A stretch of 64,000 nucleotides of DNA from Deltaproteobacteria bacterium (GTDB taxonomy: Bacteria > Bdellovibrionota > UBA1018 > UBA923). The position numbers and the translations under genes are program-made. Of the stretch, positions 33,786-59,487 are shown piece after piece. Each line of letters opens with the position of its first letter. Position 1 is the first letter of the stretch. Under the pieces are notes generated by a model that saw only the letters and a list, made by a program, of their open reading frames with translations, ran no database searches and had not been told where the DNA came from. The stretch is taken from positions 1 through 64,000 of the forward strand of contig JACPKS010000046.1 of assembly GCA_016186905.1 (NCBI GenBank). Reading direction: 5' to 3'.

Positions 33786-37430
<3,645 letters not shown>

Positions 37431-37482: not shown

Positions 37483-37896
37483 GTGGAGAAATATCTGCCT
37501 TATCTTCTGTCGGCGGCCTGGGTCATCCTGCTTTGCGGGCTGGTTTTTTTCGTGAGCGGCCTCTTTCGGACGGGGCGCAAGGGCGCCGCGTTGGGCGCCG
37601 GCCCCGATAAAGCGAGGCCTGACGAGGGCGGGCGGGTTCATATCGGGCACCGGCTCTTGATTGCGATCGCCGCGGTGCTTTTATCGGGCGTGCTGATGCT
37701 GTTTCCGATGGCGCTCGTATTCAAGGAAAGCGCGAAAGAGGGCCGCGGCACCGAACTTTTTATGGAGATCGCGTTGTTCGTCGCTGTTTTGTCGGTGGCG
37801 CTCGCGCACGCGTGGAAAAAGAACGACCTGCGCTGGCTCTCCGGCGATGACGCGGAAGAGATACGAGATGGGGATACTGGAAAACGCACTGCCTGA
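37483..37896 (+). CDS. nuoA: Divergent NuoA-like subunit of complex I cluster 1
   Basis: Membrane protein of 137 aa with three hydrophobic segments (about 4-24, 55-77, 89-107), the NuoA layout. Its first-place position before nuoB supports the call. The conserved NuoA sequences present in the second copy (YECG and LFDVE) cannot be found here. GTG 37483 is preferred because GAAAGGG ends 8 bases upstream; GTG 37474 is an alternative. It overlaps nuoB by 29 bases. Homology is supported by context and topology rather than by motifs. Confidence 0.65.
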
Positions 37897-38395
37897 ATAC
37901 GCCGTCTTTTCGCGGCTTGATCGCCTGATCAGCTGGGCGCGCGAGAATTCCATCGCGTATCTGACGATGGATCTCGCCTGCTGCGGAGTCGAGATGCTTC
38001 AGGTCTCCGGGGGGCGGTTCGATATCGAGCGCTTCGGCTCGGTCCCGCAGGTTTCTCCGCGACACGCCGATCTGATGATCGTCGCGGGCACGATCACCTA
38101 CAAGATGGCGCCGCTTTTGAGGCGGCTTTACGGCGAGATGCCGCTTCCGAAATACGTGCTCTCGATGGGGAGCTGTTCGAATTGCGGAGGGCTCTTCAGT
38201 TGGGAATATTCCTATTCGTCGGTGAGTGGCGCCGACAAAATCATTCCGGTGGACGTATTCGTTCCGGGCTGCCCGCCGCGTCCCGAAGCCGTGCTCCACG
38301 GGCTGCTCGCGCTCAGAAAGAGAATCGCGTCGCGTCACGCGGCCGTTCGCGAGGAAGCGCCAGGGGAATGGGGCAAAGAAAGGGCAGTCAAGTGA
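37868..38395 (+). CDS. nuoB: NuoB subunit of complex I cluster 1
   Basis: Subunit carrying terminal 4Fe-4S cluster N2, which hands electrons to quinone. All four ligands are present: tandem Cys38-Cys39 (LACCGVE), the Cys in GSCSNCGG and the Cys in [16 protein letters not shown] has an extra Cys where the second copy reads GVCTSSGG. Length 175 aa. ATG 37868 is inside the end of nuoA. The peripheral arm therefore looks redox-competent although the membrane arm is altered. Confidence 0.93.
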
Positions 38396-38913
38396 TGGAC
38401 CACGCGAAGCTCGCGGAAGTCTTGCGGGATGAATTCGGAAAAGACGCCGTGGCCGCTGTCGGCGGCGATCCGCGTTTTCCCTGCGCCGAGCTTGCGGCCG
38501 GTCTCGCGAAGAAAATCCTGCGCTTTTGCGCTTTCGAGGTTTCGTTGAAACTCGATTTTCTGGAAGACCTGATCGCCGTCGATACCGGCGAGCGCTTCGA
38601 GCTGATTTACCGGCTGCTTTCCACGCAACATCGCCACCGCTTCAACCTGAGAGTCGCGCTCGATCGCGGCGCCCCTGGGGCGGCGGCGACGGCCTCTTCG
38701 GTCACTGATTTGTGGCGCGCGGCACTTTGTCTTGAGCGCGAGATCGCCGAGCTTTTTGGAATCGTCTTCGAGGGCCACCCCTCTTTGGACAAGCTCTTGC
38801 TTCCCGAAGGCTGGCGCGGCTTTCCGATGCGAAGGGATTACGAATACCCCGAGGATTTCGGCGGCATCGAACACCGGCGCGCGCCGCTGAGGAAAGAACA
38901 TGCGAGGAATTGA
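38395..38913 (+). CDS. nuoC: NuoC subunit of complex I cluster 1
   Basis: The 30-kDa-type peripheral-arm subunit, 172 aa. The family core REIAELFGIVFEGHP is intact, followed by GFPMRRDYEYPEDF, matching the second copy's REVFDLFGIRFAGHP and GHPLRKDY. It has no bound cofactor and supports the NuoB-NuoD interface. The start overlaps the nuoB stop by one base (TGATG), so expression is coupled. Confidence 0.9.
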   Translation: MDHAKLAEVLRDEFGKDAVAAVGGDPRFPCAELAAGLAKKILRFCAFEVSLKLDFLEDLIAVDTGERFELIYRLLSTQHRHRFNLRVALDRGAPGAAATASSVTDLWRAALCLEREIAELFGIVFEGHPSLDKLLLPEGWRGFPMRRDYEYPEDFGGIEHRRAPLRKEHARN

Positions 38914-38916
38914 CCC

Positions 38917-40014
38917 ATGGCGATCGTGAGCGTCGGGCCCCTGGGCAACCACGCGATCGGGCCTTTTCGCATACGCATCGAAACCGACGGCGAGAACGTG
39001 CGTTCGGGCCATCCGGAAGTCGGCCTTCTCCATCGCGGCATCGAGAAGATCGCGGAGCGAATGACCTGGGCGGGATTCGTCCCCTATACGGATCGCGTGG
39101 ACTACGTTTCGTCGGTGCACGGAAACCTCGCGTATGCCCTTGCCGTGGAAAGGCTCGCCGGGATCGAAGTGCCTGAGCGCGCCAGCCGCATCCGCGTCAT
39201 CGCAACCGAGCTCGGGCGCATCGGAAGCCACCTGCTGGCGCTCGGCGCGATGGCCGATGTGCTTGGCCACCGGACGTTCTTCATGTTCGCGCTGCGCGAG
39301 CGGGAGCGCGCGAACAATCTATTTGAGATGCTCGCTGGAGCGCGGCTTACGCACAGCTACGCGCGAATCGGCGGCGTGGCCTTCGATATCACCGAGGGCT
39401 TCGTCGAGAAGACGCGGGAATTTTTGGAGTACATCGAGACGAAGATTCCGGAATATTCGGATCTTCTCTTCGGCGGAGATCTTTTTCGCGAAAGGCTTTC
39501 GGGGCTGGCGCCGGTGTCTTCGCCGCTCGCGATCCAGGCGGGATTGACCGGCCCCAATCTCAGGGCCAGCGGGCTCAAGCGCGACGTTCGCAAAGATGAT
39601 CCCTACTGCGGCTACGAACGGCTGGATTTCGGCGTGCCCGTCGGAGCCGGCGAAAGCGGAACGCAAGGAGACGCGCTTGATCGGGTCCGCGTGCGCCTGC
39701 GTGAGATCAGCGAGTCGTCGGACATCGTTCGACAGGCGCTCAAGGGCATTCCGGAGGGATCGTTTCAAAGCCCGATTCCGAGACTCTTCAGGGCTCCTGA
39801 AGGCGAGGCTTGTGCTTCAGTCGAAAGCCCGCGCGGAACGCTGTCGGTCTACGTTCGAAGTTCCGGCGGAAGGGGGCCGCGGCGCGTCCGGTTTCGCGCG
39901 CCCTCCTTCTCGGTGCTCTCGCTGTTTCCAGGGATTCTAACGGGCGCGCAGCTCAGTGACGTCGCCGCGATTGTTTCTTCCTTTGACGTCTGCGCTTCGG
40001 AGGTCGACCGGTGA
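38917..40014 (+). CDS. nuoD: NuoD subunit of complex I cluster 1, altered quinone site
   Basis: 49-kDa-type subunit, 365 aa, that with NuoB frames the quinone pocket. LLHRGIEKIAER and PYTDRVDYVSS align with the second copy, and the quinone-site Tyr (RVDYVSS) is kept. The N-terminal HPATHGTLR of normal NuoD is replaced by GNHAIGPFR, so the histidine that binds the quinone headgroup aligns with Ile. The C-terminal SIDPVxGEVDR-like ending reads SSFDVCASEVDR. It is 45 residues shorter than copy 2. Confidence 0.92.
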   Translation: MAIVSVGPLGNHAIGPFRIRIETDGENVRSGHPEVGLLHRGIEKIAERMTWAGFVPYTDRVDYVSSVHGNLAYALAVERLAGIEVPERASRIRVIATELGRIGSHLLALGAMADVLGHRTFFMFALRERERANNLFEMLAGARLTHSYARIGGVAFDITEGFVEKTREFLEYIETKIPEYSDLLFGGDLFRERLSGLAPVSSPLAIQAGLTGPNLRASGLKRDVRKDDPYCGYERLDFGVPVGAGESGTQGDALDRVRVRLREISESSDIVRQALKGIPEGSFQSPIPRLFRAPEGEACASVESPRGTLSVYVRSSGGRGPRRVRFRAPSFSVLSLFPGILTGAQLSDVAAIVSSFDVCASEVDR

Positions 40015-41108
40015 CCGCGGATCTCGAGCGCATCAGCCCGTTCGCGGCCTGGCTTTTCTCGTTCTTCGGCGTTCGCGTTCCGGCATGGATCATGGTGCTG
40101 ACGGCGGTATCGATTTACGGTTTTTTCGTGATTTTGCCGCAGCTCGCGGCGCTGGGATACCTTGACCGCAAGCTTGGCGCCGACATTCAGATGCGCATCG
40201 GCCCCAATCGAGTCGGGCCCGCCGGCCTTTTTCAGGGAATCGCGGACGCGCTTAAACTGCTTTTCAAACAGGACGCGCGGCCCGGCTCCGCCGGAATGGC
40301 GTTTCGGTTCGCGCCCATCCTCGTGCTTTGCGTCTTGTTTCTTGCCGTGGGATCGATTCCGGTTTCGAAAGACTGGGCGCTCTCCAGCGTCGATTCGGGA
40401 CTCGCGCACTTGCTCGCCGCGCTCTTGCTTTCGCGCTTTTTCCTTTTCTGGTCGGCATATTCGGCGAATAACCCGTGGTCGGCGCTCTCGGCCTTTCGAA
40501 TTCTCGCGCACGTTTCGTTTTACCTCCTGCCGCTCGCGGTCGCGTTTCTTCCTCCGGTGCTGGTCAGCGGCAGCATCGACATGGGAGGAATCCTCTCTTC
40601 GCAGGGAGGGTGGCCATGGCGCTGGACGCTTTTTCACGATCCCGGCGCGCTGATCGGCGGCCTCGTGTTTTTCGGCGCAATGCATATTTGGCAGTGCCGC
40701 GCGCCGTTCGATTTCACGAGCGCGGAGAGCGAAATCTCCGGCGGGGCGTGGTCCGAGTACAGCGGAGCGCGCAAGGGCCTTGTTTCGGTCATCGAGTTCG
40801 CCGGGCTTTATCTCAGCTGCGGTCTTTTTGCGGTTCTGTATCTCGGCGGCGGAAACGTTCCCTTCGGGCTGGACTCGTTCGGGAGGGCCGCGAGCCTCGT
40901 TCATTTTACCGCGCTCACGATCAAGATTTTCGCTTTGGCCGCAGTCTCGATCTGGGCGCGATGGTCCCTTCCCCGCCTGTGTGCCGGGCAGGTCGTTTCC
41001 TTTTCGTGGAAAGTGTTGCTTCCGTTCGGGATCGTCTCGGTGCTCTCGACGGCGCTGTGGATGGCGCTTGCGGCGGGGAAAAGTTTCGCGGAGGCGCTCG
41101 GAGCATGA
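40011..41108 (+). CDS. nuoH: NuoH subunit of complex I cluster 1
   Basis: Membrane subunit joining the peripheral and membrane arms, 365 aa with about eight helices. Strongly conserved ADIQMRIGPNRVGPAG and ALKLLFKQD segments identify it. In the loop after helix 5, the usual FAETNRLPFDLPEGESE becomes IWQCRAPFDFTSAESE, so the first acidic residue is lost while the final ESE remains. GTG 40011 overlaps the nuoD stop (GTGA) and its own stop overlaps nuoI (ATGA). Confidence 0.93.
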   Translation: MTADLERISPFAAWLFSFFGVRVPAWIMVLTAVSIYGFFVILPQLAALGYLDRKLGADIQMRIGPNRVGPAGLFQGIADALKLLFKQDARPGSAGMAFRFAPILVLCVLFLAVGSIPVSKDWALSSVDSGLAHLLAALLLSRFFLFWSAYSANNPWSALSAFRILAHVSFYLLPLAVAFLPPVLVSGSIDMGGILSSQGGWPWRWTLFHDPGALIGGLVFFGAMHIWQCRAPFDFTSAESEISGGAWSEYSGARKGLVSVIEFAGLYLSCGLFAVLYLGGGNVPFGLDSFGRAASLVHFTALTIKIFALAAVSIWARWSLPRLCAGQVVSFSWKVLLPFGIVSVLSTALWMALAAGKSFAEALGA

Positions 41109-41710
41109 ACGGGCTTGCGGCGTATCTGCGCGGGATCGGCAATCGCTGCTTAAGCGCGGCGACTGCGCTGAAAACCACGCTGCCGTACCTCATCGGAACG
41201 GGCGAGCGGTATCGCGCGGCCACGGAGGAATATCCGGATCGCGTAAGCGCGCGGATGCCGGAAGATCTTCCGCCTCGTTTTCGCGGATTGCTTCGCAACG
41301 ATATTCAGGCGTGCTCGGGTTGCCGGTATTGCGCCGATACGTGCCCGGCCGACTGCATCCATATCGAGACCGAGCCTGGACCGGAACGCAATGTGAGCTG
41401 GGTGTCGGTCTTCGACATCGATCACGCGCGCTGCATGTTTTGCGGCCTATGCGTCTAGGTCTGCCCGACTGGAAGCCTCACTCATTCGAGAGAGTATGAA
41501 GCAAGCGTCTTTCGCCTTGAAGATCTCGTGACCAGCTTCGGGCGCGGATGGGCGACGCGAGACATGAAGGAGCGCTGGCTGAAGAGCCAGGGCGCGAATG
41601 ACGCGCGCGCCGAGGAGCTTGCATTGTTCGAGCGGTCACCGGTGGGAGCCGAGCTTCAGCGCAGACGAGAACGGAAAGAAAAAGACGGCCAGAAAGGCGG
41701 CGGCCAATGA
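41105..41710 (+). pseudogene. nuoI: NuoI of complex I cluster 1, interrupted by in-frame TAG
   Basis: 8Fe ferredoxin-like subunit that wires clusters N6a and N6b. The first motif is complete (Cys70, 73, 76, 80, CPADCIHIE). The second runs Cys110, 113, 116 and then codon 118 (41456-41458) is TAG, directly before Val119-Cys120-Pro121. The frame continues for 83 more sense codons to a TGA that overlaps nuoJ (ATGA). One base change (GAG to TAG) would restore a normal CVEVCPTG motif. A truncated product would lack the fourth ligand. It may be a recent nonsense mutation, a sequencing error or read-through; other genes here (nrdJ, dnaA, yidC) use TAG as an ordinary stop. Confidence 0.88.
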
Positions 41711-42264
41711 GCGCATCGGCGGCCCTGTCGGGTTTTCTCGTCGTGGCGCTCGCTTCCGCGGCGACCTACGTCGCGTTCGGCGACGATCTTTATCGAGTAT
41801 CGACCGCATTTCTCGTCGTTTTATTCTCGGCGTCGGGATTGCTGCTTGTCCTTGAGGCCGCATATCTCGCCGCCGCTTTGTTCATGGCTGGAGCCGTAGG
41901 CGTCGTTCTGCTTCTTTCGTTCGCCGGGACGATCAGCGGTTCCCTTCGAAAAGCGCTGCTGAACGAGTCGGCCGGTCGCGCGCGTTGGGTTTCGCGCGCG
42001 CTTGCGATGCTCCTTGGCTTCGTGCTGGCCGGGTCGATCTGCTTTGCGGTAATCGCCACGTGTACGAGGCCGGTACCGCCGGAAGCCGTTGAGACCGCGT
42101 TGGCTGCGCTGCCGGGCGGAGGTTCGGTGGACGCCAAACTGTACGGCGCGGCGCTTTCGGGAAAATATTCGGGTCTTTTTGAAATCATCGGCGTTCTGGT
42201 TTTGATGGGCGCGATCGGCGCGGCGTTTTTGCTTCGCGGAAGAGGGAGGCGGGATGAGGGTTGA
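41707..42264 (+). CDS. nuoJ: Divergent NuoJ subunit of complex I cluster 1
   Basis: Membrane subunit of 185 aa with about five hydrophobic segments. The third-helix motif VYAGAIMVLFIFV of normal NuoJ (seen in copy 2) is degraded to FMAGAVGVVLLLS, so the conserved Tyr at the flexible pi-bulge is Met. The start overlaps nuoI by four bases and the end overlaps nuoK by 11. Call made from alignment of that helix and gene order. Confidence 0.82.
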   Translation: MSASAALSGFLVVALASAATYVAFGDDLYRVSTAFLVVLFSASGLLLVLEAAYLAAALFMAGAVGVVLLLSFAGTISGSLRKALLNESAGRARWVSRALAMLLGFVLAGSICFAVIATCTRPVPPEAVETALAALPGGGSVDAKLYGAALSGKYSGLFEIIGVLVLMGAIGAAFLLRGRGRRDEG

Positions 42265-42592
42265 GGTTTACGCCGTGATCGCGTCGCTGCTTGTCGGGTT
42301 GGGCGTCGGTTCGGCTCTCCATCGCGCGAGCCTCGTGGCCATCGTGATGTCTTTGGTCACCGCGGCGCTTGGAATCGTGATCCTGATGGTACTCGTGGAT
42401 CGCGTGCACGCCGCGCGTGCCGCCGCGGCTGGCGGCCAGGCCGGGCAGTTCGTCTCGGAAGGCGCCGTTTTCGCGCTCTGCCTTGGTGTCGTGTCGCTGC
42501 TCTGGATCACGCTGGGATGCTCGATCGCCTATCGCCGCCTGCTTTCAGGAAAAACTTCCAACGTGGGCGAGAACATCGAGTTGAGGCGCTGA
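42254..42592 (+). CDS. nuoK: Divergent NuoK subunit of complex I cluster 1
   Basis: Membrane subunit of 112 aa with three helices. The second helix keeps the MS start of MSIELMLN but reads MSLVTAAL, so the essential membrane glutamate is Val. The third helix replaces AAESAVGLG with VSLLWITLG, losing the second glutamate. Both carboxylates are needed for proton transfer in E. coli NuoK. Small size, position between nuoJ and nuoL and helix pattern support the identity. Confidence 0.8.
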   Translation: MRVEVYAVIASLLVGLGVGSALHRASLVAIVMSLVTAALGIVILMVLVDRVHAARAAAAGGQAGQFVSEGAVFALCLGVVSLLWITLGCSIAYRRLLSGKTSNVGENIELRR

Positions 42593-42598
42593 GACGGG

Positions 42599-44521
42599 AT
42601 GGAGACGCCTTCGCTGATTTCAGCTCTCTGCGCGCTCATCCTCTGGGGATCGGCGTACCTCGTTCTTCCGCGCGAAAGCAAAACCGGATCCGCCTATGTC
42701 ATCGGCGCGTTTGGCGTGGCTTTTCTCGGGTGCGTCGCCTGGACATGCGCGCTTGCGGCCGGCAATGGAGGAGAGGTCGCGTGGACGCTCGACTGGGCCG
42801 GCGGACTTTTTGCTTCGCATCCAAAACTCATGCTGCGCTTCGGAATTTTCGATTCGCTTCTTTGGCTGGGCTCCGTCACCGTCATCGGCCTGTTTCTCGC
42901 GCAGGATCGAACGGAAAAATCGCGGGCGGAAGCCGTCGGCATTCCGCTGCTGGGCGTGGCGCTCACGACCTGTGCCGGCTCGACAAGCCTCATGGTCTTC
43001 TTTTTCGGGATGGTTATTGCCGCCGTCGCGGGATTTGTTTTCATCGCGTTCGGAAGCGGACGCGAGACCGAGCGTTCGGAGGCGTCGGCCCGCTATCTGG
43101 TCTTGATGGCGCTTTCGGCGGGCGTCGTTTTTTCAGGAATTCTCGGACTGCTTCCGGGCGAATACGGCAGGACCTTCGCCGAGATCGCGTCAAACGGCTC
43201 CGCGGTTTCGGAGTGGGCGCTGCTTGCCCTGGTCGCCGGCTCGATGTTTTGGTGTTTTCACGCGCCGTTCCTGGGGATGGCGCGCGCTCTCGGCATCGCC
43301 GGCCCGCCGAACGCCCCGGCCTTCGTTGTGATCCACGCGTTTCTTCCGGTGCTTCTGATGTACCGCCTTCAGCCGTTGCTCGCGCACGCAAGCCTCGTTC
43401 CCGTTCTTGCGGCGGTCAGCGCGGTCAGCACGGTTGCCGCGGCGGCCCTGACGTTGCTTGAGCGCGAAACGAGCGCGCTTACCGGCTGGCTTTGCGTGCA
43501 GTTGACCTGCGCGGCTTTTATGAGTGCCGCTTTCGGAGCGGCGGATGCGGGCGCGGCGCTTGGCTTCGCGGGCATGCCCGCACTTCTTCTGTTTGCCGGC
43601 TCTCTGCCGCGGGCGCGCGAGGGCGAGCGGGCGTCTCGTTTGTTTCTCGTGGCGGCGGCCGTCATTTTGACGGGAGGCCCGCTCAGCGCCCTTGGCTGGG
43701 CAAAGCAGGTCGCATACGCCGCTTATTTCACTGACAGGAGCGTCATCGCCAGCGCGCTTCCCGCCCATGCCCCTTGGATCGCGGCCGCATGCCTCGTCCT
43801 TTCCGATCTGATTGTCGGAGTGGCGCTCTGGGGAATCGTTCGCGACGTTTTTCGAAAAAAGAAAAAAGCCGTTGCCGCGCACTGGACGCGGGTTCTTCCG
43901 CTTGCCGGGCTTCTTCTCTGCTGCCTCTCGCTCGCCGCCGGCGGCCCTCCGTTTTCGGGGCTTCTCGGGGAAGCCGACTATGCGATCGCGCCGTCCGCGC
44001 AATGGCTTGCGTACGGGCTGTTCGCTCCAGACGATCTCGCGGCGATCGGAGCGGGCCCGGTTTTCGCCGCGTCGCTTGCCGCGAGGCTCGGGTCTTTCGC
44101 GCTGGCGTTTCTTATCGGCTTTTACGGAATTTTTCGAGATCCGGAAAAGGCGGAGAAATTCCTGGCGGGGTGCCATAGGCTCTTTGGTTTTGTCGGAGCA
44201 GGCACCGGTCGCGACATCTTTTTGTGGAAAGGCTTTCTGGTGCCGGTTGCGGGAGCGATGTCCGCGGCGGCCGGTTTCTTGGAAGAGACCGTTCCGCGCG
44301 CTTTCGCGCGCGCGCAACGCTTGCCGCGTTCCGCCGTGAAAAAGGCCGCGCTGTGGGCGGAAGACCGGATTCTCGACCAGACGATCGTCGGCGGGCTCGG
44401 TGAGATGTTTCAGAGCGCGGGCAAGGCGCTTCGCTTTTTGCAGACGGGACAAGTGCAGTTTTACTTCGCCGCCGGAATTCTGCTGATGGGAATCGTCGTG
44501 GCCCGGCTTTTGACACGTTAA
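42599..44521 (+). CDS. nuoL: Divergent NuoL antiporter-like subunit of cluster 1
   Basis: Large membrane subunit, 640 aa, with the C-terminal lateral helix and anchor (ILDQTIVGGLGEMFQSAG...). The normal TM5 motif FLGWEGVGLCSY is FFGMVIAAVAGF here, so the key Glu is gone. The TM7 motif GKSAQIPLYVWLPDAM is MFWCFHAPFLGMARAL, so Lys becomes Trp. The His of VIHAF is kept, and a Lys remains in TM12 (GWAKQV). The half-channel residues needed for pumping are therefore mostly missing although the fold appears retained. Confidence 0.88.
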   Translation: METPSLISALCALILWGSAYLVLPRESKTGSAYVIGAFGVAFLGCVAWTCALAAGNGGEVAWTLDWAGGLFASHPKLMLRFGIFDSLLWLGSVTVIGLFLAQDRTEKSRAEAVGIPLLGVALTTCAGSTSLMVFFFGMVIAAVAGFVFIAFGSGRETERSEASARYLVLMALSAGVVFSGILGLLPGEYGRTFAEIASNGSAVSEWALLALVAGSMFWCFHAPFLGMARALGIAGPPNAPAFVVIHAFLPVLLMYRLQPLLAHASLVPVLAAVSAVSTVAAAALTLLERETSALTGWLCVQLTCAAFMSAAFGAADAGAALGFAGMPALLLFAGSLPRAREGERASRLFLVAAAVILTGGPLSALGWAKQVAYAAYFTDRSVIASALPAHAPWIAAACLVLSDLIVGVALWGIVRDVFRKKKKAVAAHWTRVLPLAGLLLCCLSLAAGGPPFSGLLGEADYAIAPSAQWLAYGLFAPDDLAAIGAGPVFAASLAARLGSFALAFLIGFYGIFRDPEKAEKFLAGCHRLFGFVGAGTGRDIFLWKGFLVPVAGAMSAAAGFLEETVPRAFARAQRLPRSAVKKAALWAEDRILDQTIVGGLGEMFQSAGKALRFLQTGQVQFYFAAGILLMGIVVARLLTR

Positions 44522-44535
44522 AGGAGGTTTTGAAA

Positions 44536-46059
44536 GTGGAGCAGCATATTTTAAGCGCCGTGATCGCGCTGCCGGTTCTCGGCTCGCTGGTCGTGCTGTT
44601 GGTTTCATCCCGAAGCGGGCGGTCGGCGCAAAATCTAGCCACGGCATTTTCGTTGATCACCTTTGTGCTCTCCGCCGCGCTTCTTTTGAACTATGACGCC
44701 ATGGAGCCAGGGATGCAGTTCTCCGAGCGGATCGAGTGGATCCGCTCCTTCGGTATTTTCTACGACATCGGCCTCGACGGCCTGAGCCTTCCGCTCGTGC
44801 TGCTCACGTCGCTCGTCTTTTTTCTGTGTTGCCTGGCCCCGACCGAGCTCAAAGCGGGCGCGAAGGGTTATTTCTCTCTTTTTCTGTGGCTTGAGAGCGC
44901 GCTACTGGGGTTTTTCTGCGCGAAGGATCTCTTTCTATTTTTCGTCTTTTGGACGATGTCTATTCTTCCCGCGTATTTCATCGTGAGTATCTGGGGCGGC
45001 GCCGATCGCGAGCGCGCGGCGACGCGGTTCTTTCTTTACCAGCTCGTCGGGTGCGCGCTTTTTCTTCTCGGGATGTTCGCCGTCTACTATTACTCCGAAC
45101 CGCACAGCTTCAGCCTCGCGGATCTCGGCGGCGGAAAATTCAGCTCAGTCGTCGTCGAGCTCGCCTCCCAGTCGTTTCGCTTCGATCGCTTGATTTTCGT
45201 ATTGTTTCTTTTTGGCGTGGCCATTCGCATTCCGATGTTCCCCTTTCACGGCTGGTTCATTCATTTCCAGAAGGAAGCGCCGACGTCGCTGACGGTCGTC
45301 ATGGCCTCGGTGTTTATCAAGGCCGGCGCGTACGCGCTGATTCGTCTCAACTATTCTCTTTTTCCCGATGCCGCTCTCTGGATCGCCGACTTCATGGTCG
45401 CGGTCGGGGTGCTCAACGTGCTTTACGGCGCCGTTTGCGCGCTCGCGCAGCAAGACGTGCGCAAGCTCGTTTCCTACGGAACGATCAGTCACGTCGGCTT
45501 CATCGTGTTCGGCCTCTCCGTTTTCTCGAGGGCGTCGTTTCATGGCGCGATTTTGCAAATGATCGCGCACGGAATCTACGCGGCATTGCTTTTCTTTCTC
45601 GTTGGCGCGCTGGGAAGCCGTTCGAGGCATTTCGAAATCATGCGCGGCGACGGCTCAATGGGGTTCGGCGGGCTCGCGTCGCGGGCTCCGATCCTCACGG
45701 TTTTCTTCACCGTGGCCCTCTTCGCTTCGCTTGGAATCCCCGGCCTCGGAGTGTTTTCCTCGGAGCTGCTCATCATGCTGGGCTCGTTTCAGGCGCATCG
45801 GACATTCACGGTCGTGGCGCTTTGCGGAGTTCTTTTCACGGCCGCGTATCTTATCCGCATGTACCGCAGGATTTTTCTCGGCGCGGCCCCGGCCTCGAGC
45901 GCTTCGTCGGAGTTTAGTGATCTGGGAATTCGCGAACGGTTGGGTTTCGCGCCGCTGGCGCTCCTCTGTTTTTTCATAGGAATCAACCCCGGACCGCTTC
46001 TGCGCCTGTCGACGGCGGCGGTGGGGCAGCTCCTCGCCGTTCTTGGCGGCAAAGCATGA
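44536..46059 (+). CDS. nuoM: NuoM antiporter-like subunit of cluster 1
   Basis: Membrane subunit, 507 aa, better conserved than its neighbour NuoL (FPFHGWF, EAPTSLTVVMASVFIKAGAYALIRL). In TM5 the FWEAMLVPMYF of normal NuoM reads FWTMSILPAYF, replacing the essential Glu by Thr. The TM7 Lys of AIKVPMFP is Arg (AIRIPMFP). The TM8 Lys (FIKAGAY) and TM12 Glu (SSELLIM) remain. GTG 44536 is chosen since AAGGAGG ends 8 bases upstream. The stop overlaps nuoN (ATGA). Confidence 0.92.
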   Translation: MEQHILSAVIALPVLGSLVVLLVSSRSGRSAQNLATAFSLITFVLSAALLLNYDAMEPGMQFSERIEWIRSFGIFYDIGLDGLSLPLVLLTSLVFFLCCLAPTELKAGAKGYFSLFLWLESALLGFFCAKDLFLFFVFWTMSILPAYFIVSIWGGADRERAATRFFLYQLVGCALFLLGMFAVYYYSEPHSFSLADLGGGKFSSVVVELASQSFRFDRLIFVLFLFGVAIRIPMFPFHGWFIHFQKEAPTSLTVVMASVFIKAGAYALIRLNYSLFPDAALWIADFMVAVGVLNVLYGAVCALAQQDVRKLVSYGTISHVGFIVFGLSVFSRASFHGAILQMIAHGIYAALLFFLVGALGSRSRHFEIMRGDGSMGFGGLASRAPILTVFFTVALFASLGIPGLGVFSSELLIMLGSFQAHRTFTVVALCGVLFTAAYLIRMYRRIFLGAAPASSASSEFSDLGIRERLGFAPLALLCFFIGINPGPLLRLSTAAVGQLLAVLGGKA

Positions 46060-47606
46060 ACGCCACGCTTCGGTCGGCGCTTTTCGCGCTTCTGCCGGAA
46101 CTCGTGCTGCTTCTGACGGCGCTCTTCGTTTTGCTGTCGGATTCCGCGCGCATTCCGGGGCGCCGGCAGCCGAAGGGCGCGCCCCTCTGGGTCGCGCTCA
46201 CGGGATTGCTCATCGCGGCGGCGCACACAGCCCTCTCTATCGCCGCTCCGGCATGGGAAGGAAGCGTTTCGTTCGCGGGTCTGGAGCTGAATCCGGTTTC
46301 GCAGCTATTCAAAGCCATGATCATCGGTTCCTGCGCCGTCGCCTGCCTTCTCGCGCGCACTTCGCGCGAAATCGACGACCGCGACAAGGCCGAGCTTCTG
46401 GGTCTGCTCGTCGTTTCGGCGCTGGCCCACTGTCTGATCGTGTCGGCCTCGAACCTCATCGTTCTTTTCGCGTGTCTTGAGATGGCGTGGCTTGGAACCT
46501 ATGTGCTGGCGTCATTCAAGCGCGAGGAGCCGCGCTCCAGCGAAGCGGGGATGAAGCTTTACGTGTACGGCGCATTGAGCTCCCTTCTTTTCGCGGGCGG
46601 CGCGCTCGTCGCGTACGGAGTGGCCGGAAGTTTTGACATCGCCGCGATCCGCGCGCCGCTCGCCGCGCTAGGTTCCGCGCACGATGCCGCATCGATCGGG
46701 TGCCTGCTCCTGATCTTCGCGCTTTTTTTCAGTACCGTCGCCGCGCGGCTTGCGCTCTTTCCGTTCCATTTCGCGGCCGTTGACGGCGGCGAGGGGGCTC
46801 CGATTCCAGTCGCGGCCTTTCAGTCGGCGGCGTCGCTGCTTGCAGCGGTCGCGCTCGCGGCGAGAGTTTTTCTCGACCTCTTCAGCGTGCGGTCCGCCGC
46901 GGGGTGGAGCGCGCTTGAGGGCGTGCCATGGCCCTACGTGCTCGCGCTTTTCGCCGCCGCATCGATGACGCTCGGAAATCTCGCGGCCATCAGCCAGAAC
47001 AGCTTGAAGAGAATGCTCGCCTACGCTGCGCTTTCGCAGGCCGGCTTTCTGCTGATAGGCCTTTCGGTTGCTGACGGGCTTGGCGTTGCTTCGATGATTT
47101 TTTCGCTCTTTACATACACGGTCATGATTTTGGGCGCATTCTTCACGATCCAATGCATTTCAGGCTTCTATTCCGGATCGCAAACTTCCGACGACCTCTC
47201 GGTACTCGACGGCCTGGCCTGGAGAGAGCCGTTTGCAGCCGTGGCACTGAGCTGCTTTCTTCTTGGACTGATCGGGGTTCCGCCGCTTTCAGGATTCCTA
47301 GGGCGATTCTATCTTCTTAATGCGGCGCTTCAGGGCGGACATCTTTGGGTCGCGGCGATCTTTGTCTTGAATTGGGTGATTGGTTCGGCCTACATGCTTC
47401 GGCTTGTGGCGAGATTTTTCAAGGATGAGGTGGCTCACCGGGTTGATGCCGGCACAAAAGACGTTATGTTCACCCGCTTTGAAAAGGCCGTGCTTGTTTT
47501 TCTCATGATCCCGACCATCGGCCTTGGGATCTTCAGTGATCCATTCATGAGATATCTCTCTAAATCGCTCTCCCAATCATTCGAGCTTCTCACTCGGTCT
47601 TTATAG
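46056..47606 (+). CDS. nuoN: NuoN antiporter-like subunit of cluster 1
   Basis: Membrane subunit of 516 aa ending the first cluster. The TM5 Glu is retained (CLEMAWLGTYV). The TM7 Lys before PFH is Arg (ARLALFPFH), the TM8 Lys of TTGLKAAAF aligns with Leu (SAASLLAAV), and the TM12 Lys of FAGKYL is Arg (FLGRFYL). NSLKRMLAYAALSQAGF and GVPPLSGFLG confirm the family. Followed by a 69-base gap without a clear terminator or strong promoter before the second cluster. Confidence 0.92.
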   Translation: MNATLRSALFALLPELVLLLTALFVLLSDSARIPGRRQPKGAPLWVALTGLLIAAAHTALSIAAPAWEGSVSFAGLELNPVSQLFKAMIIGSCAVACLLARTSREIDDRDKAELLGLLVVSALAHCLIVSASNLIVLFACLEMAWLGTYVLASFKREEPRSSEAGMKLYVYGALSSLLFAGGALVAYGVAGSFDIAAIRAPLAALGSAHDAASIGCLLLIFALFFSTVAARLALFPFHFAAVDGGEGAPIPVAAFQSAASLLAAVALAARVFLDLFSVRSAAGWSALEGVPWPYVLALFAAASMTLGNLAAISQNSLKRMLAYAALSQAGFLLIGLSVADGLGVASMIFSLFTYTVMILGAFFTIQCISGFYSGSQTSDDLSVLDGLAWREPFAAVALSCFLLGLIGVPPLSGFLGRFYLLNAALQGGHLWVAAIFVLNWVIGSAYMLRLVARFFKDEVAHRVDAGTKDVMFTRFEKAVLVFLMIPTIGLGIFSDPFMRYLSKSLSQSFELLTRSL

Positions 47607-47675: not shown

Positions 47676-48038
47676 ATGACAGCGTACATCCCCGTTCTCA
47701 TTTTGATGGGACTCGGCGCGGCGGTCGCGGCGATTGTTTTGCTGCTCACGCATCTGATCGGCCCGAAAGCCCCGAACAAAATCAAGATGGGCGTTTACGA
47801 GTGCGGGGTGCCGCCCATTGGCGACGCAAGACGGCGGTTCTCGGTGAAGTTCTACCTCGTTGCGATTCTTTTTCTGCTCTTCGATGTCGAGACGGTTTTT
47901 TTCTTTCCGTGGGCGGTAGTTTATAAAAAATTCTTGAGCGTCAATGCGTTTATTCTCGCGGAGATGCTCGTTTTTCTGGCGATTCTTCTCGTCGGATACG
48001 TGTACATCTACCGAAAAGGCGCTTTGGAATGGGACTAG
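47676..48038 (+). CDS. nuoA: NADH-quinone oxidoreductase subunit A (cluster 2)
   Basis: First gene of the canonical 14-subunit complex I. The 120-aa protein has three transmembrane helices and the full family motifs: [27 protein letters not shown] and FFPWA. It lines the entrance to the quinone channel. It is separated from nuoB by 144 bases that contain no gene but a small hairpin (48091-48110). Confidence 0.96.
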
Positions 48039-48182
48039 CCTGCTCGCGTCTTTTCGCGCGATACTGCGTCTGGCTCCTCCTTCCTCCCGCAGCGTACTTC
48101 TGTGTACGCTTTGGTCGGGCGTCGTCGCCATCCTTGTCTCGCACGAAAATACGCTTCGCAGGCATTGGTGTAACAGAAAGTT

Positions 48183-48689
48183 ATGGCTAAAGACTCGTCG
48201 CCGGGAATCATGACCACCCGCCTGGATGCCGCGGTCAACTGGGCCCGCAAAAATTCGATGTGGCCTCTGCCGTTCGGAACCTCGTGCTGCGGCATCGAGT
48301 TGATGGCGACCCTTTCGGCCGACTACGACATGTCGCGCTTCGGAGCCGAAGTCGTGCGCTTCTCGCCGCGCCAGGCTGACCTTCTCATCTGTGCCGGCAC
48401 GATCGCGAACAAGATGGCGCCGATTCTGAAGAACATTTACGAGCAGATGTCGGAACCGAAGTGGGTCATGGCGTTCGGTGTCTGCACCAGCTCGGGAGGA
48501 ATTTACAATATTTACAGCGTGCTTCAGGGCATCGATACGATCATCCCGGTTGACGTTTACATTCCGGGCTGTCCGCCGAGCCCCGAAGGCGTCATCCACG
48601 GCCTGATGAAGCTGCAGGAGCGCATCGCGCGTGGCGACTACGGCAGCAGCCGCAAGCGGCCCACGCGCGAGGAGCTTTTCGGGAAATAA
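48183..48689 (+). CDS. nuoB: NADH-quinone oxidoreductase subunit B (cluster 2)
   Basis: N2-cluster subunit of 168 aa. Ligands are the tandem Cys in GTSCCGIE, the Cys in GVCTSSGG and the Cys in PGCPPSPEG. ADYDMSRFG and FSPRQADLLICAGTIANKMAP match ordinary NuoB. It couples electron delivery to quinone reduction. Two bases separate its stop from nuoC. Confidence 0.97.
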   Translation: MAKDSSPGIMTTRLDAAVNWARKNSMWPLPFGTSCCGIELMATLSADYDMSRFGAEVVRFSPRQADLLICAGTIANKMAPILKNIYEQMSEPKWVMAFGVCTSSGGIYNIYSVLQGIDTIIPVDVYIPGCPPSPEGVIHGLMKLQERIARGDYGSSRKRPTREELFGK

Positions 48690-48691
48690 AA

Positions 48692-49228
48692 ATGGCGAAT
48701 CCCGTTTTGGAAAATCAGATCAAGAAAATTCAGGATCGCTTCGGCGCCTCGATCGCGAAGATCGAGTACGACCGCGCAGGTTGCCCGATCCTCTGGGCTA
48801 AAAAAGACGACGCGATCGAGTTTTTGAAGTTTCTTAAGGCCGCGGCGGGTCTCGATTTCATCTTTCTTGCCGATCTTACCGCGTATGATGAGCTGGGCTC
48901 CGAGGAAGAAGCGCTCAGCCGCTTCGTCGTCGTGTACAACCTGTATTCGCCCGAGCACGGCACGCGCGCGCGCGTGAAAGTTCGCTTGCGGCTCGATGAG
49001 CCGATGCCCACGGCCGTCGGCGTCTGGAGCGGCGCCAACTGGGCCGAGCGCGAAGTGTTCGACCTGTTCGGGATTCGGTTCGCGGGGCACCCCGATCTGC
49101 GCCGCATTCTCTTGGATATTCGCTGGGAGGGTCATCCGCTGAGGAAAGATTACTACTGGCGCAAGAGTCAGATTTTCACGGATGCCGAGCCGATCCCGGA
49201 ACACCTGCTGAAGGACGAAAGCCGATGA
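48692..49228 (+). CDS. nuoC: NADH-quinone oxidoreductase subunit C (cluster 2)
   Basis: Peripheral-arm scaffold subunit, 178 aa. The signature ANWAEREVFDLFGIRFAGHPDLRRIL and GHPLRKDYYW are present. It is encoded separately from nuoD, unlike the fused NuoCD of E. coli. The stop overlaps the nuoD start (ATGA). Confidence 0.96.
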   Translation: MANPVLENQIKKIQDRFGASIAKIEYDRAGCPILWAKKDDAIEFLKFLKAAAGLDFIFLADLTAYDELGSEEEALSRFVVVYNLYSPEHGTRARVKVRLRLDEPMPTAVGVWSGANWAEREVFDLFGIRFAGHPDLRRILLDIRWEGHPLRKDYYWRKSQIFTDAEPIPEHLLKDESR

Positions 49229-50457
49229 AGACCGACGCGACTCATTACGGCGGACATCAAGACGAATCCGACGAGATTTACGAGGATTCGAAAGTTTATA
49301 TGAATATCGGGCCCTCTCACCCGGCGACGCACGGCACGCTTCGCGTGATGGTTCGCTTAAGCGGCGAGACGATCGAGAAGTCCATCAGTGAGATGGGTTA
49401 CCTCCACCGCGGCAAGGAAAAAATCGGCGAGAATGTCACGTACCACAAATTCCGCCCGCATACCGACCGGATGAACTACTGCTCCTCGCTCGCCAACAAC
49501 GTCGCTTACGACATGGCGATTGAGCGCGTCATGGGTCTCGAAGTGCCGGAACGCACGAGATATATCCGCACGATCTGCGTGGAAATCTCTCGCATCATCG
49601 ACCACCTGATTTGCGTCGGCATCAACGCCGTCGACCTCGGCGCGTTCTCGTTTTTCCTTTACGGCTTCCATCAGCGCGAAGAAGCGTACACGCTGATCGA
49701 AATGCTCTGCGGAGCCCGCCTCACCACGACCTACACGCGCGTGGGCGGGCTTGGCTGGGAGCCGCCGCCCGAGTTTCTTCCGGCGCTCATAAAGTGGCTC
49801 GACGGTTTCGAGCCGGTCGTGGCTGAGATGGACAAGCTCCTCACGGACAACAAGATCTGGGTCGATCGCACCAAGGGCGTCGGCGCGTTCACGCGCGAAG
49901 AAGCTCTGGCGTACTCGTTCACCGGCCCCTGCGCGCGCGCGAGCAACGTGAACATCGACCTTCGCCGCGACCAGCCCGATCCGCTTTTGAAATACGGCGA
50001 GCTGGACTTCGAGGTTCCGCTCGGAAAAAACGGCGACGTCTACGACCGGTATCTCGTCCGAATGGAAGAACTTCGTCAGAGCGCGAGGATGCTGCGTCAG
50101 CTTGCCGCGAAATGCCCGGACGAAGGCCCCATCTGGGTTGACGACAAGCGCGTGGTGATTCCTCCGAAAGACCGAGTCTACAATTCGATGGAAGCGATGA
50201 TCCATCACTTCAAATTTTTCATGGAAGGCTTCGACGTTCCGCCTGGTGAAGCGTACACGTGCATCGAAGGCCCGAACGGGGAGTTGGGATTCTACGTGAT
50301 CAGCAAGGGAGGTCCGATGGCCTGGCGCATGCGCGTGCGCGCGCCGTCGTTTTGGATGTACCAGGGCCTCGATCCAATGATCAAGGGCGAGAAGATCGCC
50401 GACCTCGTGGCATCGCTCGGAAGCATCAACGTCATCGCGGGCGAGCTGGACAGATAA
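49225..50457 (+). CDS. nuoD: NADH-quinone oxidoreductase subunit D (cluster 2)
   Basis: Quinone-site subunit, 410 aa. The N-terminal IGPSHPATHGTLR keeps the headgroup-binding His, and the quinone-site Tyr lies in DRMNYCSSLANN. GYLHRGKEKIGE and the terminal SINVIAGELDR (close to the usual GEVDR) are present. It therefore looks fully functional, in contrast to the first-cluster copy. Confidence 0.97.
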   Translation: MKTDATHYGGHQDESDEIYEDSKVYMNIGPSHPATHGTLRVMVRLSGETIEKSISEMGYLHRGKEKIGENVTYHKFRPHTDRMNYCSSLANNVAYDMAIERVMGLEVPERTRYIRTICVEISRIIDHLICVGINAVDLGAFSFFLYGFHQREEAYTLIEMLCGARLTTTYTRVGGLGWEPPPEFLPALIKWLDGFEPVVAEMDKLLTDNKIWVDRTKGVGAFTREEALAYSFTGPCARASNVNIDLRRDQPDPLLKYGELDFEVPLGKNGDVYDRYLVRMEELRQSARMLRQLAAKCPDEGPIWVDDKRVVIPPKDRVYNSMEAMIHHFKFFMEGFDVPPGEAYTCIEGPNGELGFYVISKGGPMAWRMRVRAPSFWMYQGLDPMIKGEKIADLVASLGSINVIAGELDR

Positions 50458-50460
50458 ATT

Positions 50461-50937
50461 ATGAGCAAGAAGATCCTCTCCGAAAAATTTTACAAGGAGA
50501 TCGAGCGGATCAGGCCGAGGTATCCGACGAACCAGGCGCTTCTCCTTCCGGCGCTGCATCTGGCGCAAAAAGAGCAAGGCTGGGTTTCGGGCGAGGTCAT
50601 GGACGAGGTCGCGGCCGCGATCGACATCCCGCCTCCGGTCGTGCGCGAGGTCATCACGTTCTACACGATGTACAACCTGAAGCCGGTGGGGAAGCACCAC
50701 CTGCAGGTCTGCACGAACATTTCGTGCGCGCTCATGGGCGCCGAGGAGCTGCTCGGGCATTGCGAGAAAAAACTCGGCATCAAGGCGGGCGATACGACGC
50801 GAGACAGGAAATTCACGATCACCGAGGTCGAGTGTCTTGGCGCGTGCGGGACCGCCCCGTGCATTCAGGTCAACGACGACTATCACGAGAACATGACGGC
50901 CGATAAGATCGACAAGCTTCTTTCGGAGCTTTCGTGA
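50461..50937 (+). CDS. nuoE: NADH-quinone oxidoreductase subunit E (cluster 2)
   Basis: 24-kDa-type subunit of the NADH-oxidising module, 158 aa, with thioredoxin fold. The 2Fe-2S (N1a) ligands are CTNISC and, 36-40 residues later, CLGACG. ITFYTMYNLKPVGKHH is typical. It starts 3 bases after nuoD and overlaps the nuoF start by one base. Confidence 0.96.
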   Translation: MSKKILSEKFYKEIERIRPRYPTNQALLLPALHLAQKEQGWVSGEVMDEVAAAIDIPPPVVREVITFYTMYNLKPVGKHHLQVCTNISCALMGAEELLGHCEKKLGIKAGDTTRDRKFTITEVECLGACGTAPCIQVNDDYHENMTADKIDKLLSELS

Positions 50938-52235
50938 TGCCTGAGATCATCGTTTCGAAATTCTTCTACAACAAGGAAGCGGCGCCGCTCTCTTACTACA
51001 AGGCACACGGCGGGTACGAGGGCCTGAAAAAGGCGCTCGGCATGACGCCCGGCGCGATCATCGCCGAGATGAAGAAATCCAACATGCGCGGGCGCGGGGG
51101 TGCTGGCTTTCCGACCGGGATGAAGTGGGGCTTCATTCCGAAAGAATCCAAAATGCCGAAGTACATGGTGTGCAACGCCGACGAGTCGGAGCCCGGCACG
51201 TTCAAAGACCGCGCGATCATGACGTACTCCCCTCACATGCTGATTGAAGGAATGGCGATCGGATCGTTCGCGATCGGCGCGCGCGTCGCGTACATTTACA
51301 TCCGCGGAGAGTACGTGCGCGAGGCCGGGATTCTCGAAAAAGCAATCGAGGAGGCTTACAAAGCCGGTATCCTCGGCGAGAAAGTCATGGGCTCGGATTT
51401 CAAGCTCGATCTGTACGTGCACCGCGGGGCGGGCGCCTACATCTGCGGCGAAGAGACCGGCCTGCTCAACAGCCTCGAGGGCAAGCGCGGCGAGCCGCGC
51501 GTGAAGCCGCCGTTTCCGGCCATCAAAGGCGCGTTCGGCGGGCCCACGATCGTGAACAACGTCGAAACGCTGGCCGCCGTCCCAGCCATCATCCTAAAGG
51601 GCGGCGAGTGGTTCGCGGGTCTCGGAAAATTTCCGAACAGCGGCGGCACGCGCCTCTATTGCGTTAGCGGCCACGTGAACAAGCCCGGGCTTTACGAATT
51701 TGCTTGCGGCGCGGTTACGCTGCGCGAGCTGATCTACGACCACTGCGGCGGAATCCGGAACGGCAATAAGCTCAAGGCCGTGATTCCCGGAGGTTCGTCG
51801 GCGCCCGTGCTGACCGCGAACGAGCTCGATATCGCGCTCGACATCGAACCGATGATGAAGGCGGGCACGATGCTGGGCTCGGCGGGCGTCATCGTGATCG
51901 ACGAGACCTGGAGCGCGGTGAAAGCCATCAAGCGCATCACGCACTTCTACGCGCACGAGTCGTGCGGGCAATGCACGCCCTGCCGCGAAGGCTGCCGCTG
52001 GATGGAAGACGTGCTGCACCGGATTCTCGACGGTCACGGCAAGATGACCGACCTCGACCTGCTTTTGAACGTCGCCGGCAACATCAACGGCAAAACGCTG
52101 TGCGCGCTAGGCGATGCGGCGGCCGGTCCCGTGATCAGCTTCGTGAAAAAATTCAGGCACGAATTCGAGGAAATGATCCGGAATGAAACAAACGCCCTAA
52201 ATGGGCGTTTGTCGGCCGAGCAAGGGAAGGTCTAG
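50937..52235 (+). CDS. nuoF: NADH-quinone oxidoreductase subunit F (cluster 2)
   Basis: NADH- and FMN-binding subunit with 4Fe-4S cluster N3, 432 aa. The nucleotide loop is RGRGGAGFPTG, FMN contacts include CNADESEPGTFKDR, and ESCGQCTPCREG plus a later Cys (GKTLCALGD) ligate N3. ATG 50937 is favoured over the GTG one codon earlier because GGAG is 7 bases upstream. The last 15 or so codons form an RNA hairpin (52188-52212). Confidence 0.97.
   Translation: MPEIIVSKFFYNKEAAPLSYYKAHGGYEGLKKALGMTPGAIIAEMKKSNMRGRGGAGFPTGMKWGFIPKESKMPKYMVCNADESEPGTFKDRAIMTYSPHMLIEGMAIGSFAIGARVAYIYIRGEYVREAGILEKAIEEAYKAGILGEKVMGSDFKLDLYVHRGAGAYICGEETGLLNSLEGKRGEPRVKPPFPAIKGAFGGPTIVNNVETLAAVPAIILKGGEWFAGLGKFPNSGGTRLYCVSGHVNKPGLYEFACGAVTLRELIYDHCGGIRNGNKLKAVIPGGSSAPVLTANELDIALDIEPMMKAGTMLGSAGVIVIDETWSAVKAIKRITHFYAHESCGQCTPCREGCRWMEDVLHRILDGHGKMTDLDLLLNVAGNINGKTLCALGDAAAGPVISFVKKFRHEFEEMIRNETNALNGRLSAEQGKV
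52188..52212 (+). repeat. Perfect inverted repeat at the 3' end of nuoF
   Basis: Ten-base arms ACAAACGCCC and GGGCGTTTGT flank the loop TAAAT within the nuoF coding end, 29 bases before the nuoG start. There is no following T tract, so it is not a standard terminator. It could stabilise the upstream message or lower downstream expression. Confidence 0.85.
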
Positions 52236-52241
52236 TGTAAT

Positions 52242-53645
52242 ATGTCTCCTAAATGCACCATCGACGGCAAAGAGTACGAGTTCAAGCCGGGCGAGATGAT
52301 CATTCAGATCGCCGATCGCAACGGTGTTGCGGTTCCGCGATTCTGCTACCACCCCGGCCTTACGATCGTCGCCCAGTGCCGGATGTGCGCGGTCGAAGTC
52401 GAGAAAATGCCCAAGATCCAGACGGCCTGCTCAACGCCCGCGGCCGACGGAATGGTCATCCACACCGGGTCGGAGAAAGTGAAATCCGCGCAGTCCTCGG
52501 TCATGGAGTTTCTGCTCATCAATCACCCGCTCGACTGCCCGATCTGCGACAAGTCGGGCGAGTGCGACCTGCAGAACTACAGCTTCGACTACGGAGCGCC
52601 CGATTCGCGCTACGAGGAACAGCGCCGCACGTACATGGACCTCGACATGGGTCCGGTCATCAAAAAGAACATGAATCGCTGCATTCACTGCACGCGCTGC
52701 ATCCGCTTCTGCGACGAGGTGGGTGGCTTTCGCGAAATGGTGGCGCTCAAGCGCGGCAACAACGTCGAGATCACGACCGTTGACGGCAAGGCGCTCGAAA
52801 CCGATTACGCCGGAAACCTCGCTGACATCTGCCCAACGGGGTCGCTTACGCTCAAAGACTTCCGCTTCCGCAAACGCGTTTGGTATCTCAAGAAAACGAA
52901 ATCGGTTTGCGAAGGCTGTTCGCGGGGCTGTAACATCGAAATTCACCAGGAGAACGGCGTCGTTTACCGCCTTCTGCCGCGCGAAAACATGGAGATCAAC
53001 AAATGGTGGATCTGCGACGAGGGCCGCTTCAACTTCCATTACGTCAACGCTCCCTCGCGCATCGTCGAGCCTTCGGTCAAAACCGCGGCACAGCTCGAAA
53101 CTTCTGACTGGAGCACGGCCTTGGCCGAGGCCCGTCGCCGGATCTCGGGAAAAGTTCTCGTGCTCGCGGGCTCGGATCTGACGCTTGAGGAGCTTCGCGC
53201 GATCCAGAAATTCGCGGCTGACCGCCTGAAGGAGTGCGCGCTTTTACACTTCGGAACGCCAGGGCATCTCAGCGCCGACGACGACAAGGATGAAGACAAG
53301 ATCCTCCGCCGCACGAGCAAAACCTCCAATCTTCATGGCGCGGAAAAACTCGGACTCAGGGGCTGGAAAGGCGACGGCTCCTACGACTCCGCGTTGGTAT
53401 TCCGCGGCGGGCGCGCGGCTCTTCCGCACGGCCTTCGCAGGCACGTCAAGGGCGCGATCGTCGGCGTCGGGGTTTTTCCGCGCGAGGGCGCCGGCGACTT
53501 CGACGTGGTCCTGCCGGGTCTTTCTTACGTCGAGAAATCCGGAACGATCGTGAATTGGCAGGGCAAGGAACAGAAGCTTCAGAGATCAATCGAGCCCGTA
53601 GGTCTTTCGAAGGGCATCGCGGACGTGTTCGCGATGTGGGCGTAG
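52242..53645 (+). CDS. nuoG: NADH-quinone oxidoreductase subunit G, compact form (cluster 2)
   Basis: Iron-sulfur subunit of the NADH module. Ligand sets are visible: 2Fe-2S N1b (CYHPGLTIVAQCRMC...C), His-ligated cluster (HPLDCPICDKSGECDLQ), 4Fe-4S (CIHCTRCIRFC...CPTG), and an N7-type motif CEGCSRGC followed by Cys after exactly 27 residues. At 467 aa it is far shorter than the usual 680-900. The molybdopterin-like domain is reduced, yet the terminal VLPGLSYVEKSGT and NWQGKEQ segment is retained, so the loss is internal. It ends 14 bases before nuoH. Confidence 0.93.
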   Translation: MSPKCTIDGKEYEFKPGEMIIQIADRNGVAVPRFCYHPGLTIVAQCRMCAVEVEKMPKIQTACSTPAADGMVIHTGSEKVKSAQSSVMEFLLINHPLDCPICDKSGECDLQNYSFDYGAPDSRYEEQRRTYMDLDMGPVIKKNMNRCIHCTRCIRFCDEVGGFREMVALKRGNNVEITTVDGKALETDYAGNLADICPTGSLTLKDFRFRKRVWYLKKTKSVCEGCSRGCNIEIHQENGVVYRLLPRENMEINKWWICDEGRFNFHYVNAPSRIVEPSVKTAAQLETSDWSTALAEARRRISGKVLVLAGSDLTLEELRAIQKFAADRLKECALLHFGTPGHLSADDDKDEDKILRRTSKTSNLHGAEKLGLRGWKGDGSYDSALVFRGGRAALPHGLRRHVKGAIVGVGVFPREGAGDFDVVLPGLSYVEKSGTIVNWQGKEQKLQRSIEPVGLSKGIADVFAMWA

Positions 53646-53659
53646 GGGGAAAAGCCGCA

Positions 53660-54754: not shown

Positions 54755-54756
54755 AC

Positions 54757-56056: not shown

Positions 56057-56078
56057 ACGGCGGGAAGGGATTTAGAGA

Positions 56079-59484: not shown

Positions 59485-59487
59485 GCG

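Follow-up and report, generated by a model that had tools for sequence, protein, structure and literature searches.

A candidate non-pumping complex I: an 11-subunit homologue with degenerate coupling residues in a family of Bdellovibrionota

Introduction

The 11-subunit, NuoEFG-less complex I of the D. hafniense type consists of subunits ABCDHIJKLMN, has no N-module and has a donor that is not known (PMC11238625). There is still no agreement on how complex I uses quinone reduction to drive proton pumps that lie far away. The coupling path has been described as leading from the quinone site to the E-channel (PMC7434922), with His38 as the residue that protonates the quinone and Asp139 as its partner in an ion pair that, on breaking, signals to the membrane domain (PMC8697550). 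Here we describe a complex I cluster (cluster 1) of a Deltaproteobacteria bacterium from an uncultured family (GTDB phylum Bdellovibrionota; contig JACPKS010000046.1, positions 1 to 64,000 of the forward strand, the whole stretch of 64,000 nucleotides being called the window). Cluster 1 is an 11-subunit nuoABCDHIJKLMN cluster without nuoEFG, located on the + strand at 37483-47606 and followed directly downstream, on the same strand, by a canonical 14-subunit nuo set (cluster 2). Its coupling machinery has been lost along the whole route, from the His/Asp trigger of the quinone site through the E-channel (NuoH, A, J, K) to the antiporter-like subunits, NuoL having lost most and NuoM and NuoN part. 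The N6a-N6b-N2 path, the quinone Tyr and the full set of membrane subunits are kept, as would suit a membrane-anchored oxidoreductase without proton pumping. We judge the chances to be even that cluster 1 encodes a redox-active, non-pumping complex I; its expression and redox activity, its electron donor and acceptor, and the absence of pumping are inferred from sequence.

Residues lost from cluster 1

Residues were called by alignment to the Nuo proteins of E. coli K-12, to cluster 2 and to about 25 other complex I copies from the phylum, and are given in E. coli numbering unless stated otherwise. The search covered the four genomes of the family and 369 genomes in the phylum. The window genome is G000 and its copy of cluster 1 is W1; G002 and G003 (JACQAX01, "Deltaproteobacteria bacterium", from groundwater) represent two other genera, and G001 is a second species of the genus of G003. 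The genes of cluster 1 overlap or nearly so (TM, transmembrane helix):

37483..37896, + strand: nuoA1 (Pfam PF00507, E 5e-7, and alignment); D79L and E81G, both E-channel residues
37847..38395, + strand: nuoB1 (Pfam PF01058 and alignments); N2 cysteines all kept
38395..38913, + strand: nuoC1 (Pfam PF00329)
38917..40014, + strand: nuoD1 (Pfam PF00346); H224I and D325V, equivalent to His38/Asp139 of T. thermophilus Nqo4 (alignment to 2fug_4) and here I14/V115; Tyr87 kept
40011..41108, + strand: nuoH1 (Pfam PF00146); E36D (conservative), E71Q, E157L, E216S; D213, E220, E228 and K274 kept
41105..41710, + strand: nuoI1 (alignment); both 4Fe4S Cys motifs in frame
41456..41458, + strand: in-frame TAG within nuoI1, only in the window genome; G002 and G003 intact
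41707..42264, + strand: nuoJ1 (Pfam PF00499 and alignment); gating Tyr replaced, Y59G
42254..42592, + strand: nuoK1 (synteny and alignment to NuoK, no Pfam match); both membrane Glu replaced, E36V and E72W
42599..44521, + strand: nuoL1 (extremely diverged, no Pfam match; hhalign to NuoL, E 1.2e-18 over 564 columns); E144V, K229W, K305S, K399D, K342 lost
44530..46059, + strand: nuoM1 (PF00361; TIGR01972 above cut-off); E144T (TM5), K234R (TM7); K265, H241, H322, H348 and E407 retained
46056..47606, + strand: nuoN1 (Pfam PF00361); K217R (TM7), K247L (TM8), H305Q, K395R (TM12); E133 retained
47676..61017, + strand: canonical nuoA-N cluster 2 with EFG, 70 bp past nuoN1; pumping residues all present; same order in G002 and G003
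33786..37430, - strand: mfd, divergent neighbour of the nuo cluster; common to G001, G002 and the intact EFG-less membrane arm of G140, elsewhere in the phylum

Homologues of NuoA, B, C, D, H, I, J, K, L, M and N in a single cluster lacking EFG support descent as an 11-subunit complex I (NDH-1). A preliminary description of the window had placed a complex I cluster deprived of its pumping residues at 40011-47606, a span that holds nuoH1 to nuoN1; the cluster begins at nuoA1 (37483), and the replacements in NuoA and NuoD had been overlooked. Alignment reproduced the changes reported there for NuoL (TM5 Glu to Val and TM7 Lys to Trp, to which K305S, K342 and K399D are now added), NuoM (TM5 Glu to Thr, Lys to Arg), NuoN (Lys to Arg, Leu and Arg), NuoK (both membrane Glu) and NuoJ (gating Tyr). 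The reported loss of the first loop Glu of NuoH held in part: E36D and E71Q are seen, but the latter is absent in G003, and E157L and E216S had been missed.

In NuoL1, no TM5 Glu or TM7/8/12 Lys/Glu remains, and the LQTGQVQFYF element at the C-terminus is kept. Every checked central-axis or E-channel residue of NuoL, NuoK, NuoJ and NuoA is gone, with the exception of one NuoL His, and the complete E-channel set (NuoA D79/E81, NuoK E36/E72, NuoH E157/E216, NuoJ Tyr59) is missing from W1, G003 and G002. The channels could in principle have been rebuilt from other charges, as the preliminary description had considered, but the alignment revealed no new conserved charged residues in these four subunits of cluster 1, while NuoM and NuoN keep part of their own axis. 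AlphaFold models of NuoL1 built from 3 and 6 sequences reached mean pLDDT values of 40.6 and 46.5, too poor for residue-level statements, and the top Foldseek match was E. coli NuoL (E 3e-5, TM-score about 0.5, from a low-confidence model with canonical NuoL sequences in its input alignment).

The erosion is not confined to pumping residues. Of the invariant canonical columns, W1 retains 103/118 (87%) in the peripheral arm (B, D, I) versus 156/314 (50%) in the membrane arm, with A at 1/11, J at 3/9, K at 3/10, L at 24/100, N at 35/56, M at 55/80 and H at 35/48. Within the membrane arm of W1, 16/40 pumping residues and 140/274 other invariants are retained (Fisher p=0.24), and the excess of loss is not significant in G003 either (Fisher p=0.09), so the membrane arm as a whole is released from constraint, not selectively stripped. 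A loss targeted at pumping residues alone is thus unsupported in W1 and G003; in G002, pumping residues are lost more (8/41 versus 131/275 retained, Fisher p=0.00065). NuoM and NuoN are the least eroded pump subunits, their axis being partly kept in W1 and G003.

Electron path and quinone site

The four cysteines of N2 (NuoB) and the eight of N6a/N6b (NuoI) are all kept in every cluster 1 copy readable there, as is the quinone Tyr (Tyr87) of NuoD. The quinone-entrance region DRK...RIGPN of NuoH is kept as well. The Ni-binding CxxC motifs that [NiFe] hydrogenase-type relatives (membrane-bound hydrogenase, MBH; Ech; FHL) have at both ends of the NuoD homologue are absent from NuoD1 of W1 and G003. 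At the His38 position, NuoD1 has I/I/I/S, and at the Asp139 position V/Q/N/T, in W1/G003/G001/G002; every canonical NuoD examined has both residues, unlike one more distant, hydrogenase-like protein in the set. We had considered that the quinone His of NuoD1 was kept, but the conserved His of the HRG motif is a different residue.

The altered quinone site raises the question of the acceptor. A redox-active complex might use its remodelled cavity beside N2 to reduce a substrate other than quinone, as the membrane-bound sulfane reductase MBS does at its proximal cluster (PMC7684303). The loss of the His/Asp pair fits such a change, as do replacements specific to the family that directly precede the N2 cysteines of NuoB (W55, P56, F59, G60). 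The conserved Tyr87 and quinone-entrance region of NuoH count against it, and we regard a non-quinone acceptor as unlikely, though worth keeping in view.

NuoI1 carries features of its own. The TAG of the window genome separates two of the cysteines in the second cluster motif; beyond it, the frame is open and conserved to 41710, and in G002 and G003 the frame is open at this position. A frameshift was rejected, the lesion being a single in-frame TAG that may reflect an error in the consensus sequence, polymorphism or recent loss. The NuoI1 proteins of three genera (window 41105-41710; L040:6430-7023; L028:2650-4383) have in common an inserted segment, RVSARMPEDLP, and, at the C-terminus, a tail about 60 residues long (GRGW.TR.MK...ARAEE...SPVGAEL), both absent from the other NuoI proteins compared. 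This insert and tail are a possible docking element for an electron donor.

Conservation and gene order in the family

Cluster 1 is present in all four family genomes, with the same losses wherever the sequence is readable. The same positions are lost in G002 and G003, and the NuoA and NuoD losses recur in G001, a 72%-complete metagenome-assembled genome in which mfd-nuoA1B1C1D1 stands at a contig end. Because the positions agree among genera, the losses are ancestral to the family and not due to chance. None of them was seen when about 25 further copies of complex I from the phylum were compared. A full-length NuoL1 was found in three of the four family genomes; among the 369 phylum genomes, G077 has the next best match (E 3e-23), a conventional NuoL in which no key residue is missing. 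A collection-wide scan with a NuoL1 profile gave a full match only in JACQAX010000307.1 (G003), and the three other matches covered only the C-terminal element.

Wherever the junction is readable, cluster 1 lies directly upstream of the canonical nuoA, the gap being 70 bp in the window, about 16 bp in G003 and about 70 bp in G002, and the two clusters probably form one operon. This constant arrangement would suit a structural or regulatory partner, which would act as scaffold or regulator of the canonical complex I encoded downstream without doing redox work; the preliminary description had proposed such a role alongside the loss of pumping. Its non-pumping part is well supported, by the residues discussed above and by the constraint described below. 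A purely structural or regulatory role is unlikely in our view, and a redox-active complex is favoured over it because NuoB and NuoI keep their 12 Fe-S ligands wherever these are readable, as NuoD keeps the quinone Tyr; moreover, constraint within cluster 1 is strongest on NuoB and NuoD and weakest on the membrane arm.

Selection on cluster 1

Between G001 and G003, the ratio of nonsynonymous to synonymous divergence (dN/dS) was 0.147 for NuoA1, 0.042 for NuoB1 and 0.080 for NuoD1, which are thus under purifying selection; NuoB1 retains 95% identity at a dS of about 1. More distant pairs are saturated in dS, and for these we give only dN, which between W1 and G003 was 0.41 for NuoM, 0.47 for NuoH, 0.55 for NuoK, 0.63 for NuoJ, 0.63 for NuoN and 0.84 for NuoL. 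NuoL1 similarity is still significant with third positions at or near saturation (W1 versus G003, E 5e-68; W1 versus G002, E 5e-6). Cluster 1 evolves much faster than cluster 2, as the identities between G000 and G002 illustrate (22 vs 74% for L, 38 vs 73% for M, 29 vs 63% for N and 39 vs 70% for H). The preliminary description had taken the open frames outside NuoI as a sign of maintained proteins, and the low dN/dS values agree with it. Neither a dN/dS near 1 nor frameshifts in relatives, the marks of neutral decay that it had named, were found: all cluster 1 frames, NuoI included, are open in G002 and G003. The low dN/dS and the open frames therefore argue against neutral decay, and cluster 1 is best described as relaxed but maintained, with NuoL1 the weakest case.

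A slower decay could still be envisaged, in which a redundant complex is becoming a pseudogene and its frames stay open partly because a stop would have polar effects on the essential cluster that follows. The TAG in NuoI of the window genome, the near-saturated dN of NuoL and the still larger number of residues lost in G002 all point that way. Polarity would, however, keep frames open and not amino-acid sequence, and the constraint on NuoA1, NuoB1 and NuoD1 and the subunit similarity persisting at saturated third positions make this course quite unlikely. A pump moving fewer protons through NuoM, and perhaps NuoN, is improbable: W1 and G003 retain K265, H322, H348 and E407 in NuoM and E133 in NuoN, making a NuoM-based residual pump possible in these two, but the NuoM TM5 Glu, the E-channel and the quinone His/Asp are lost, and in the more eroded G002, where NuoM also lacks K265, H322, H348 and E407, it is not plausible.

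Origin and other complex I copies

In the NuoD1 tree, the four family members form one clade (100/99) near the EFG-less NuoD of the phylum, and NuoM1 groups with the first-module NuoM of the phylum, the support for placing cluster 1 near the EFG-less type being moderate. Upstream of cluster 1, mfd and two peptidyl-prolyl isomerase genes are divergently oriented; in G140, mfd and both isomerase genes adjoin an intact AHJKLMN cluster (L030), and nuoBCDI is encoded at another site. Based on both trees and the mfd neighbour in G140, cluster 1 most likely represents, in this family, the EFG-less complex I that other members of the phylum carry. In other families of the phylum, the membrane arm is encoded as AHJKLMN without BCDI (L029, L033, L045), sometimes as two arms in tandem, and nuoBCDI forms a separate operon (L108-L111), amounting to a split, doubled complex I layout.

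The window genome also encodes a third complex I (L071, G000:C110:45000-64035; L073, G000:C84), again nuoABCDHIJKLMN without EFG, with pumping residues present; the TM7 Lys position of its NuoM is Ile in the automatic alignment. A POR_N protein is encoded a few kb upstream of it (G000:C110:51989). A hydrogenase- or Mrp-like relative of complex I with two NuoL/M-like proteins and NuoH-, NuoD- and NuoB-like genes is found at L072 (G000:C69:8000-27000). Elsewhere in the window, a gene at 24402-25370 encodes a NotI-like restriction endonuclease (PF12183, E 1e-65), of an uncommon rare-cutter family, and sits in a region of replication genes (dnaA, dnaN, gyrB, gyrA at 11.3-21.7 kb).

Proposed function

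For a redox-active, non-pumping complex I, NuoI would be the entry point for electrons, supplied either by a soluble donor or by the neighbouring complex through its NuoEFG module; they would pass via N2 to quinone unrestrained by the proton-motive force, providing an overflow or redox-balancing route. More tentatively, and with somewhat less than even confidence, cluster 1 could be a naturally uncoupled complex I, in which quinone electron transfer is under selection and the whole coupling chain (His38-Asp139, E-channel, antiporter-like subunits) has been discarded. We hypothesize that such an enzyme would uncouple instead of stall because the whole chain, including the trigger, was lost at once.

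Several observations weigh against this proposal. When such residues of Nqo13 are replaced by site-directed mutagenesis in Paracoccus, the enzyme loses turnover but stays strictly coupled (PMC9802314). With the quinone His also gone, quinone reduction itself may be impaired. The supply of electrons is a further difficulty: each genome encodes a single NuoF, which belongs to the canonical cluster wherever its position is readable (cluster 2 in G000), although sharing of NuoEFG between the two complexes is conceivable, and a 2-oxoacid:ferredoxin oxidoreductase was found only in G000 and not in G002, leaving ferredoxin from pyruvate oxidoreductase unsupported as a family-wide donor. Finally, NuoL1 is only weakly constrained (dN 0.84, dS 1.25, near saturation), and NuoI1 of the window genome is interrupted by the TAG. 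On the quinone side, MqnA (futalosine route) was searched for and not found.

Comparison with known systems

In the D. hafniense-type complex I, which has the same subunits as cluster 1 and whose donor is likewise not known, both the quinone-reduction features and the pumping module are described as conserved (PMC11238625), whereas in cluster 1 trigger and pumps are both degenerate. The EFG-less complex I of other members of the phylum, made up of nuoBCDI and a nuoAHJKLMN cluster beside mfd (G140, G059, G060), provides the nearest relatives of NuoD1 and NuoM1 but, unlike cluster 1, has all pumping and quinone-site residues. Photosynthetic NDH-1 (ferredoxin:plastoquinone) also lacks NuoEFG, and its NdhH ranks among the closest relatives of NuoD1 with a solved structure; it differs in that it pumps and has subunits specific to oxygenic photosynthesis. 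MBS and MBH are complex I relatives with a different site beside the proximal cluster, whereas cluster 1 is a full 11-subunit complex I whose NuoD1 lacks Ni ligands and keeps the quinone Tyr.

In the open-access literature, which set the scope of our search, we found no precedent for a natural full-length complex I with its pumping residues lost. If our proposal is correct, cluster 1 would be an experiment of nature that tells the parts required for electron transfer from those that serve pumping alone, and redox turnover would not require the pump. The unusual variants known from sequence, namely 2M complex I, green complex I and Manganitrophus Complex_I_3, gain pumping subunits (PMC9040806); cluster 1, which loses pumping residues, would be their missing opposite.

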